DNA of 44,848 nucleotides from Gemmatimonadota bacterium (GTDB lineage Bacteria > Gemmatimonadota > Gemmatimonadetes > Gemmatimonadales > GWC2-71-9): assembly GCA_003223395.1 (NCBI GenBank), contig QHUZ01000027.1, positions 1 through 44,848 of the forward strand. Direction: 5' to 3'. The notes beneath the pieces are model-generated. The model ran no database searches. It was not told the DNA's origin and saw nothing but the letters and a program-made list of their open reading frames with translations. Both the position numbers and the translations under genes were made by a program. Shown here in pieces: positions 28,679 to 32,716 of the stretch (positions within the stretch are counted from its first letter, which is position 1; every line of letters starts with the position of its first letter).

Positions 28679-28873
28679 CTCGAAGCTGAAAAGTACTACG
28701 GCGGCGAGGGGCGGCAAAGGCCGCCGATTTCCTTTAGATTCCAGGAGCGCCGCCAGGGCGGCCCACGGTCCGCGTAAAGGGTTTCTAGCCCCCCTAAGCT
28801 TTGCCAGACATGACCTGACTTCCTCGCCCCACGACGCGGACAACGGGCGGTTCTAGGAAGGAAGGTTCGCGTC
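28679..28873. other. Divergent intergenic region: pyr leader and ankyrin-gene promoter space
   Basis: About 195 bases separate pyrR from the ankyrin gene. A perfect six-base stem with an AAAG/CTTT loop lies at 28710-28725, about 30 bases before pyrR. It could be part of an attenuator, but no U-run follows. I find no convincing PyrR-binding consensus and no clear promoter pair. The plus-strand side has GGAAGGAAGG just before the ankyrin GTG start. Confidence 0.4.
28700..28715 (+). repeat. 16-base GC-rich intergenic repeat, copy 1
   Basis: GGCGGCGAGGGGCGGC, identical to the copies at 32229-32244 (same strand) and 32668-32683 (opposite strand). This copy sits in the pyrR leader and supplies one arm of the small hairpin there. 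Confidence 0.8.
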
Positions 28874-31071: not shown

Positions 31072-32201
31072 TCGACCTTCAGGCCCCTGGGACCCACGTA
31101 TTCCGATTGCGGCCGGATCAGGTGATCCTCGGCATGCTGCTCAATGACATGGGCACACCAGCCGGCGACTCGCCCACACGCAAACGTTGCTACGAATGAG
31201 CGCGGCTCGAGGCCCAGCGCCTGGAGCACGAGTGCCGTGAAGAACTCGACGTTCGTACGCAGATTCCGCCCCGGCTTCACTTCGTCCAGGACCTTCACGA
31301 TCGTCTGCTCCGCCGCGCGCGCCAGGTCGAACAGTTTCCGGTTCTCGAGGGCCGCCGAGCTGAGCTGATCGGCGACTTTGCTGAGCACTTCGGCGCGGGG
31401 GTCGCGGACCTTGTAGACACGGTGGCCGAATCCCATGATCCGCCGCCCCGCCGCCAGCTCATTCCGCACCCAGCCCTCCGCGCGATCAGCGGACCTGATG
31501 TCCTTGAGCATGTCGAGCACGGGACCCGGCGCGCCGCCGTGCAATGGCCCCTTGAGGGCGCCGATCGCGCCCGTTACGGCGCTGACCAGGTCCGAGCGCG
31601 TGCTCGCAATCACGCGCGCGGTGAATGTGGATGCGTTCATGCCATGGTCGATCACCGTGACCCAGTAGCTGTCGATCGCGCGCGCGGCGATCGGGTCGGG
31701 CTCCTTGCCGTGCATCATGTACAGAAAGTTCGCGGCCAGCGGCAAGTCGGTCCGCGGCGCGATCGGCGCCTGGCCGGCGCTCAGCCGGGCATGTGCCGCG
31801 ACAACAGTTGGGAAGCGGGCGGTGAGCATCTTCGCGGCCTGCATGTCCGCACCGGGCGAGATCTCATCTGGCTGAGCGAGATCGAGCGACAGGGTGGCGC
31901 ACGCCATACGCAGCGCGTCGATCGGCGGTGCCTGGGCGGCAGCCCGCACGACGTGCAAGGCTTCCTCAGGTAGCGGCCGCAACCCCGCGATTTCCTTCCG
32001 CAGGGTCGCCAGCTCGTCCTTCGAAGGCAGTGCGCCGCGCCACAACAGATGCGCCGCTTCCTCGAACGTCACATGGCCCGCCAGCTCCCTGAGCTGGTAC
32101 CCGCCGATGATCAGCTCACCGGCCTGGCCGTCCACGTGGCTGAGGCGCGTCTGGGCGGCGACGACACCATCAAGACCGCGCGGCCTGGTATTAGAGCTCA
32201 T
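31068..32201 (-). CDS. Citrate synthase family protein (citrate or 2-methylcitrate synthase)
   Basis: Condenses oxaloacetate with acetyl- or propionyl-CoA. Conserved elements include GGYQLRELAGHVTFEEAAHL, the catalytic His in GFGHRVYKVRDPRAEVL, the substrate Arg/Asp region in RTNVEFFTALVLQALGL, and HGGAPGPVLDML. At 377 residues it belongs to the short, dimer-type family, in which citrate and methylcitrate synthases cannot be separated by eye. The ATG at 32201 was chosen over an extension that runs into the intergenic repeat. Confidence 0.92.
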   Translation of the reverse strand: MSSNTRPRGLDGVVAAQTRLSHVDGQAGELIIGGYQLRELAGHVTFEEAAHLLWRGALPSKDELATLRKEIAGLRPLPEEALHVVRAAAQAPPIDALRMACATLSLDLAQPDEISPGADMQAAKMLTARFPTVVAAHARLSAGQAPIAPRTDLPLAANFLYMMHGKEPDPIAARAIDSYWVTVIDHGMNASTFTARVIASTRSDLVSAVTGAIGALKGPLHGGAPGPVLDMLKDIRSADRAEGWVRNELAAGRRIMGFGHRVYKVRDPRAEVLSKVADQLSSAALENRKLFDLARAAEQTIVKVLDEVKPGRNLRTNVEFFTALVLQALGLEPRSFVATFACGRVAGWCAHVIEQHAEDHLIRPQSEYVGPRGLKVD

Positions 32202-32204
32202 GTG

Positions 32205-32250
32205 ACAGGGCGGCGAAGGGCGGTGAAGGGCGGCGAGGGGCGGCAAAAAC
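32205..32250 (+). repeat. Ten-base tandem repeat upstream of the four-helix-bundle gene (contains 16-base copy 2)
   Basis: Four degenerate 10-base units of the form CGGCGAAGGG run from 32211. The exact word GGCGGCGAGGGGCGGC occurs at 32229-32244. The array fills the space between the citrate synthase start and the four-helix-bundle gene. Confidence 0.8.
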
Positions 32251-32280
32251 ATGAACCTCGCGAGGAAATGGTCCTGCTCT

Positions 32281-32306
32281 GTGCCTCGAATTGTCTATCA
32301 AGGCAC
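32281..32306 (+). promoter_or_regulatory. Inverted repeat abutting the start of the four-helix-bundle gene
   Basis: GTGCCT and AGGCAC form a perfect six-base stem, extended by two more pairs after one mismatch, across 26 bases that end directly on the ATG. It could be an operator or an mRNA hairpin covering the ribosome-binding region. A separate palindrome, CCTCGCGAGG, lies at 32256-32265. Confidence 0.5.
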
Positions 32307-32666
32307 ATGGCGACACACAAACGGTTCTTGGCATGGCAGGAATGCCATAAGCTTGTCCTTGCAGTCTATAAGGCAACCGAGTGCTTTCCCAAACATGAGC
32401 TATATGGTCTGACATCCCAACTCCGTCGTGCCGCGCTCTCAGCTGCCGTAAATATCGTCGAGGGCGCATCAAAAAAGGGCCGAAACGAATTTCGACGCTT
32501 TCTTGACATGTCTCTCGGATCGCTGGCTGAGGTCGAATATGAGTTAGAGGTGGCCGGTGCACTCGGCTACTTGAATGACGACGTGTGCTCCAGTCTTACT
32601 AACCAAGTACGCAGAGCCCATTTCTTGACGTGGAAGCTAAAAATCTCGATGAACGACGCGACCTAG
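32307..32666 (+). CDS. Four-helix-bundle protein (23S rRNA intervening-sequence / Avd-like family)
   Basis: The 119-residue product shows the family signature: FLAWQECHKLVLAVYKATE, FPKHELYGLTSQLRRAALSA, AVNIVEGASKKGRNEFRRFL, and the C-terminal helix beginning SLAEVEYELEVAGALGYL. Family members occur as orphan genes, inside 23S rRNA spacers, or as Avd accessory proteins of diversity-generating retroelements. No reverse transcriptase or template repeat is present here. The gene is visibly more AT-rich than its neighbours, is oriented against both, and lies between two inverted GC-rich repeats, which suggests recent acquisition. Confidence 0.9.
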   Translation: MATHKRFLAWQECHKLVLAVYKATECFPKHELYGLTSQLRRAALSAAVNIVEGASKKGRNEFRRFLDMSLGSLAEVEYELEVAGALGYLNDDVCSSLTNQVRRAHFLTWKLKISMNDAT

Positions 32667-32716
32667 CGCCGCCCCTCGCCGCCGTCTCACCTGCCGCCGT
32701 CTCACCTGCCGCCCTT
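32667..32716 (-). repeat. GC-rich repeat downstream of the four-helix-bundle gene (16-base copy 3 plus 15-base tandem)
   Basis: The exact reverse complement of GGCGGCGAGGGGCGGC lies at 32668-32683. It is followed by two perfect 15-base units (32678-32692 and 32693-32707) and a partial third. The array begins at the stop codon of the four-helix gene and runs into the last codons and stop of the M20 peptidase. Confidence 0.82.

Follow-up and report, generated by a model that had tools for sequence, protein, structure and literature searches.

Intervening sequences (IVSs) of 23S rRNA are about 0.43 kb long and have been proposed to be selfish elements; their transposition was also proposed, and left open (PMC4990558). 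The IVS of Coxiella carries tandem GACAGAT heptamers ahead of an S23p ORF and has a stem made of inverted repeats, and Xanthomonas S23p forms a homopentamer (PMC4990558). What 23S IVSs and S23p do, and where they come from, has been an open question for over 25 years (PMC4990558). The S23p/IVP family has a published motif, GxxRxxxSxxxNxxE, and its genes were reported as CRISPR-associated (PMC3936711; listed too in PMC10910872). In REPIN/RAYT systems, a single-copy gene is flanked by its own type of inverted repeat, of which solo and hairpin copies are dispersed (PMC3116915). In the literature searched, which lay outside subscription journals and most preprints, IVS-type elements are known in 23S rRNA (Coxiella, with heptamers) and not dispersed, and we found there no description of a dispersed form. 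Here, we analysed a gene of this family and its flanks in a stretch of 44,848 nucleotides from a Gemmatimonadota bacterium (contig QHUZ01000027.1), hereafter called the window.

An IVP gene between two inverted arrays

The gene at 32307–32666 (+ strand) encodes a 119-aa protein that profile matches, AlphaFold2, and Foldseek place among the four-helix bundles of the S23p/IVP type. It scored 103.1 bits against PF05635 (curated cut-off 33.8) and 99.5 bits against TIGR02436 (cut-off 24), and both scores, above the curated cut-offs, bear out the 23S-IVS-type assignment made in an earlier note on this DNA. As also stated there, the gene is AT-richer than its surroundings (GC 0.51 vs 0.67–0.69 in the flanks) and sits between a citrate synthase gene and an M20 peptidase gene; since both neighbours are on the minus strand, it is transcribed against both. 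The description of the gene as an orphan had to be given up, since the same genome has 13 PF05635 loci, one of them a disrupted gene that appears as two frames.

The AlphaFold2 monomer model (pLDDT 96.9) comprised four helices, and its top Foldseek match was 2gsc, by name the Xanthomonas S23p, with TM-scores of 0.87–0.91 for the best chains. The RxxxSxxxNxxE motif is present in the window protein, and R41, S45, N49, and E52 are kept in 96–99% of 194 sequences; three residues ahead of R41, the window protein has Q38 instead of G. Eight positions, mostly polar (Q38, R41, S45, N49, E52, G53, S72, and E75), are 95–100% conserved in the 194 sequences; they could make up an active site not yet recognised, or a structural network. 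With a dN/dS of 0.11 at one Flavobacterium locus, the IVP protein is under purifying selection there, at the one locus measured.

The 5′ arm (32207–32244, + strand) consists of four tandem units of ~10 nt, of the GGGCGGCGAA type, with the G-rich strand reading into the element. The 3′ arm (32668–32715, − strand), which begins 1 nt past the stop codon, is an inverted copy of this array, and the inverted alignment of the two arms scored 37. A single 16-base word in opposite orientation on each side of the gene had been noticed before. The word, GGCGGCGAGGGGCGGC, does form a perfect inverted repeat, at 32229–32244 (+) and 32668–32683 (−), and it is the inner part of the two arrays: in the window's element family, an arm is an array of 10–15 nt units. 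With ≤2 mismatches, GGCGGCGAGGGGCGGC has 5 matches in the window, for 0.6 expected; with ≤1 mismatch, it occurs 65 times in the genome vs 2 for the reversed word. The downstream repeat was correctly said to supply the last codons of the M20 gene, the arm encoding PKGGR and the stop codon (32702–32716). On the other side, we noticed an in-frame upstream ATG (32252), preceded by GAGG, that would add an arm-encoded N-terminal extension to citrate synthase (32199–32252).

Between the 5′ arm and the gene, the leader (32245–32306, + strand) contains a hairpin that had been described as abutting the start codon. Its 7-bp stem (TGTGCCT/AGGCACA) is present, yet it is not conserved: none was seen in the homologous elements of the relatives G003 and G008, and we therefore attribute it to chance. 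Elsewhere in the window, the sequence surrounding a short solo array (28693–28725) matches sequence that flanks a full IVP element in G003 (G003:C39, L070:1–750). Reading the flanking sequences of both, we regard 28700–28715 (+ strand) as a solo remnant array at a place where G003 seems to hold the full element. A check for further copies in the genus found the same repeat type at G003:C39 and G008:C28.

Inverted arms accompany PF05635 genes in many phyla

Arms were scored by local alignment of the 250 nt upstream of each gene with the reverse complement of the 250 nt downstream, with a threshold of ≥34. Random windows had a median score of 20 and a maximum of 33. Of the 13 PF05635 genes in the window's own genome, twelve were testable, the thirteenth being truncated by a contig end, and all twelve had inverted arms, with scores of 37–61. 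The threshold was also reached by 97/113 PF05635 genes of relatives and by 59/76 untruncated ones from named genomes of many phyla. When the flanks were aligned in direct orientation as a control, 34 was reached in 0/13, 2/113, and 6/76 cases in the own genome, the relatives, and the other phyla, respectively, and windows shifted within a locus reached it in 2/78 loci. The possibility, raised earlier, that such flanks are as common beside ordinary genes did not hold: none of 28 ParE toxin genes of the same relatives reached 34 (maximum 24), and among window ORFs of 90–170 codons a single one (1/60) was just at 34.

In the own genome, the flanking repeats are short and usually tandem, and the repeat word changes from one PF05635 gene to the next, so that a shared flank is not obvious. 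Element size is tight (median 525 nt), the 3′ arm lying ~1 nt past the stop codon. Beyond the window's order, about a fifth of family members are without clear arms, as are some operonic ones (L093 and L094). We also noticed two elements (L121 and L153) with very long arms, their 5′ side running to >100 nt of near-perfect heptamers, and a Stanieria element (L096) in which a ~44-nt palindrome, perhaps a nested small dispersed repeat, interrupts the 5′ arm (~1889–1945).

Gene and arms are inherited together

Among pairs of genes with non-homologous flanks, arms were shared by ≤1% of those below 50% protein identity and by 50% (4/8) of those at 70–80%. Arm similarity was higher within an element than between orthologues (permutation p = 1e-4). 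Because arms are common to related genes at unrelated sites and matched within elements, gene and arms travel and evolve together. Judging from these comparisons, the unit is an array, the gene, and the inverted array, co-inherited at unrelated sites, and the two arms keep matching each other within an element while drifting between elements. Much of the cassette idea of the earlier note thus stood, since gene and inverted flanks behave as a unit, with arms common to related genes at unrelated loci. The 16-mer did not stand as a fixed terminal repeat: every element has its own.

Relatives hold filled, empty, and array-only sites

At the gltA–M20 site, G000 and G003 have the gene plus arms, G005:C28 and G008:C28 have an array only, and G005:C230 and G007:C115 are empty, so that the empty sites anticipated between these two genes do exist. 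As seen in such comparisons, element sites in relatives are filled, empty, or occupied by a leftover array. One element is common to G000 and G004, with genes 71% identical and no difference in the 27-nt arms, but it occupies a different site in each; the sites lie 0.8 kb from one another, and each genome is empty where the other is filled. The element has apparently relocated by about 0.8 kb; alternatively, the pattern could reflect two ancestral copies and differential loss. PF05635 copies within a genome are usually 30–55% identical, and movement here is hence not recent. Incidentally, gene-less pairs of GGCGGCGARG arrays (L081, L082, L085, L086, and L088) had the G-rich strand first in 5/5 cases, like the gene-bearing element, and two arrays in opposite orientation lie 3.7 kb apart at G000:C27:90611–94322 (L079).

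Plasmids provided further cases. A cyanobacterial plasmid element, located 3′ of an integrase gene, was used as a query that only two Calothrix brevissima plasmids covered in full, 42/44 records matching it only in part. The three nearest relative plasmids read, ~90% identical to that of Calothrix, lacked exactly the element. Two Stanieria plasmids (97.9% identity) differ by a deletion with GCCT microhomology at its ends, which took out an element except for part of its 5′ arm; such a scar accounts for at least some solo arrays. In the cas6–cas4 gap of two cyanobacterial plasmids, IVP genes adjoin heptamer arrays (L095:2001–2360 and L340:1537–1905), inverted arms being measured for that of L095; the same gap in a relative, taken as an empty site, has only a different heptamer array. 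No phage record among those searched encoded a close relative.

At one Flavobacterium intergenic site, the content depends on the species: either of two IVP families, whose arms differ, hairpins without a gene, or no insertion at all. As a candidate for a proliferating Flavobacterium hairpin family, AATCAAGAGCCAAGA was rejected: it has ≤2 matches per genome, mostly at one orthologous site, and the hairpin is possibly a terminator.

Two other readings of these distributions were weighed. If the arrays were the target rather than the ends, the gene would insert into pre-existing tandem arrays, and the gene-less solo arrays that G005 and G008 have at the gltA–M20 site, as well as the about 65 matches to the 16-mer word in the genome, would follow. 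We find this hard to credit, since the arms are inverted, mutually matched, and common to related genes at unrelated sites, since true empty sites are without any array, and since the Stanieria deletion shows how a partial array originates. The gene might instead be a non-mobile host gene that regulates itself, with IVP binding the arrays in its own leader and with presence and absence reflecting loss only. Purifying selection and persistence at one site, both seen in Flavobacterium, speak for this, as does a repeat spacing that fits a ring protein. However, a regulatory leader has no need for an inverted 3′ arm, and relocation and plasmid-specific presence speak against it, the Calothrix plasmid case already pointing to gain. 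We consider it very improbable.

The arms share a YRR grammar

The repeat period in named genomes is mostly 7 and sometimes 8. Fifty-three heptamer arms, from many phyla, could be phase-aligned to YRRnnnn with zero exceptions at the three core positions. The alignment held 4.74 bits of information vs ≤3.91 for shuffled heptamers, the phase being picked for maximum agreement in real and shuffled sets alike. Arms usually have 4–5 cores, with a mode of 5 and with 4 nearly as common, and the window's own element family has 4 units per arm. In 19 Flavobacterium orthologues, five AG at an 8-nt period were present in 14 of the 5′ arms and 16 of the 3′ arms, with variable spacers. A strict rule of five repeats was dropped, since 4 is close behind 5, the window family has 4, and some arrays are long. 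Given the modal five cores, the pentameric Xanthomonas S23p, and a window model that best matches 2gsc, we hypothesize that one IVP pentamer binds one arm.

No sign of RNA pairing, target-site duplication, or reverse transcriptase

The arms remain complementary, and RNase III excises the Coxiella 23S IVS in its stem (PMC4990558). Both would fit an RNA-level IVS, in which the transcript folds arm upon arm, RNase III cleaves the resulting stem, the insertion stays silent, and selection acts on RNA pairing. A sense/antisense wobble test of arm mismatches, however, found no RNA-level pairing signature: 194 were G·U-compatible in the sense strand vs 232 in the antisense strand (p = 0.07), that is, the direction opposite to RNA pairing. 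In addition, YRR cores are kept despite imperfect pairing, and pairing alone would not demand cores. Selection on RNA pairing is thus unlikely, and the lack of a sense-strand G·U excess favours, without proof, selection at the DNA level or gene conversion.

PF05635 is the sole gene between the arms; there is no RAYT transposase gene, and no recognised transposase or reverse transcriptase within the element. Outer flanks were no more alike than shuffled pairs, so that no target-site duplication was found above chance; old copies could have lost theirs. As to the mobility claimed for the cassette, active transposition is inferred from comparison. IVP might also work in trans with a reverse transcriptase encoded elsewhere, like Avd, whose structures 4dwl and 8ub7 are neighbours of the window model (TM-score ~0.8); a resemblance between IVP and Avd was noted before (PMC10053308). 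Against this, no RVT_1 reverse transcriptase domain was found in the own genome, which is 97.6% complete and has 13 PF05635 loci, and we give retro-mobility very little weight.

Discussion

We propose, with a probability of about 0.6, that the window unit is one copy of a ~0.5-kb mobile element of the IVS/S23p type lying outside rRNA, and that its protein probably binds the arms. The element may be selfish or semi-domesticated. A putative pentameric four-helix-bundle protein would bind the arms, with each subunit taking about one YRR core, recognise both ends, and promote their movement or upkeep by acting on DNA, with strand transfer being done by host enzymes or by an unrecognised active site. 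Insertion would be rare, and deletion between short homologies would remove the element and leave solo arrays. IVSs of 23S rRNA would have arisen when copies entered rRNA helices that tolerate a hairpin.

A broader view, which we hold tentatively and at somewhat less than even odds, is that of a class of mobile elements present in many phyla, devoid of a known transposase, and encoding nothing but a ring-shaped pentamer, which recognises the regularly spaced YRR repeats of its own ends (about one per subunit). On this view, copies or remnants of the class would include 23S IVSs as well as part of the dispersed heptamer repeats and of the "CRISPR-associated" IVP genes. Sequence comparison suggests in particular that 23S IVSs exemplify a widespread mobile element without recognisable transposase. 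Since in two cas loci the IVP gene lies beside heptamer arrays in the cas6–cas4 gap, CRISPR-associated IVP genes may be passengers. Part of the short tandem repeats dispersed in bacterial genomes may likewise derive from IVP elements. Now that this architecture is seen to recur outside rRNA across many phyla, with a shared repeat grammar, the question of a remnant of transposition becomes a testable system: the protein and the two arms are defined, and sites both with and without the element are available.

TRAP is an RNA-binding ring protein that takes one short core per subunit along a regularly spaced array. IVP would share with it the idea of a core per subunit; the proteins are unrelated and the likeness is an analogy only. 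Avd of diversity-generating retroelements has the same fold as the window protein, with no sequence match at E 0.001, but it has a reverse transcriptase as partner, whereas the window genome is without RVT_1. REPIN/RAYT is alike by analogy, with a distinctive gene, its own inverted repeats, and dispersed solo copies; it differs by its tyrosine transposase and short palindromes, where the window element has a four-helix bundle and tandem arrays. We regard the window element as a variant of the IVS kind, which would become a new class of element only if movement were demonstrated, and as IVS-like rather than a 23S IVS because it is located between citrate synthase and M20 genes; no rRNA was found at element sites in the 20 named loci tested. 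The 23S IVSs of Coxiella and Leptospira have the same S23p protein family and inverted-repeat ends, and the GACAGAT repeat of Coxiella reads as CAGATGA, a YRR unit. They sit in a 23S rRNA helix, whereas window-type elements are intergenic and dispersed, with several in a genome and a separate repeat for each.
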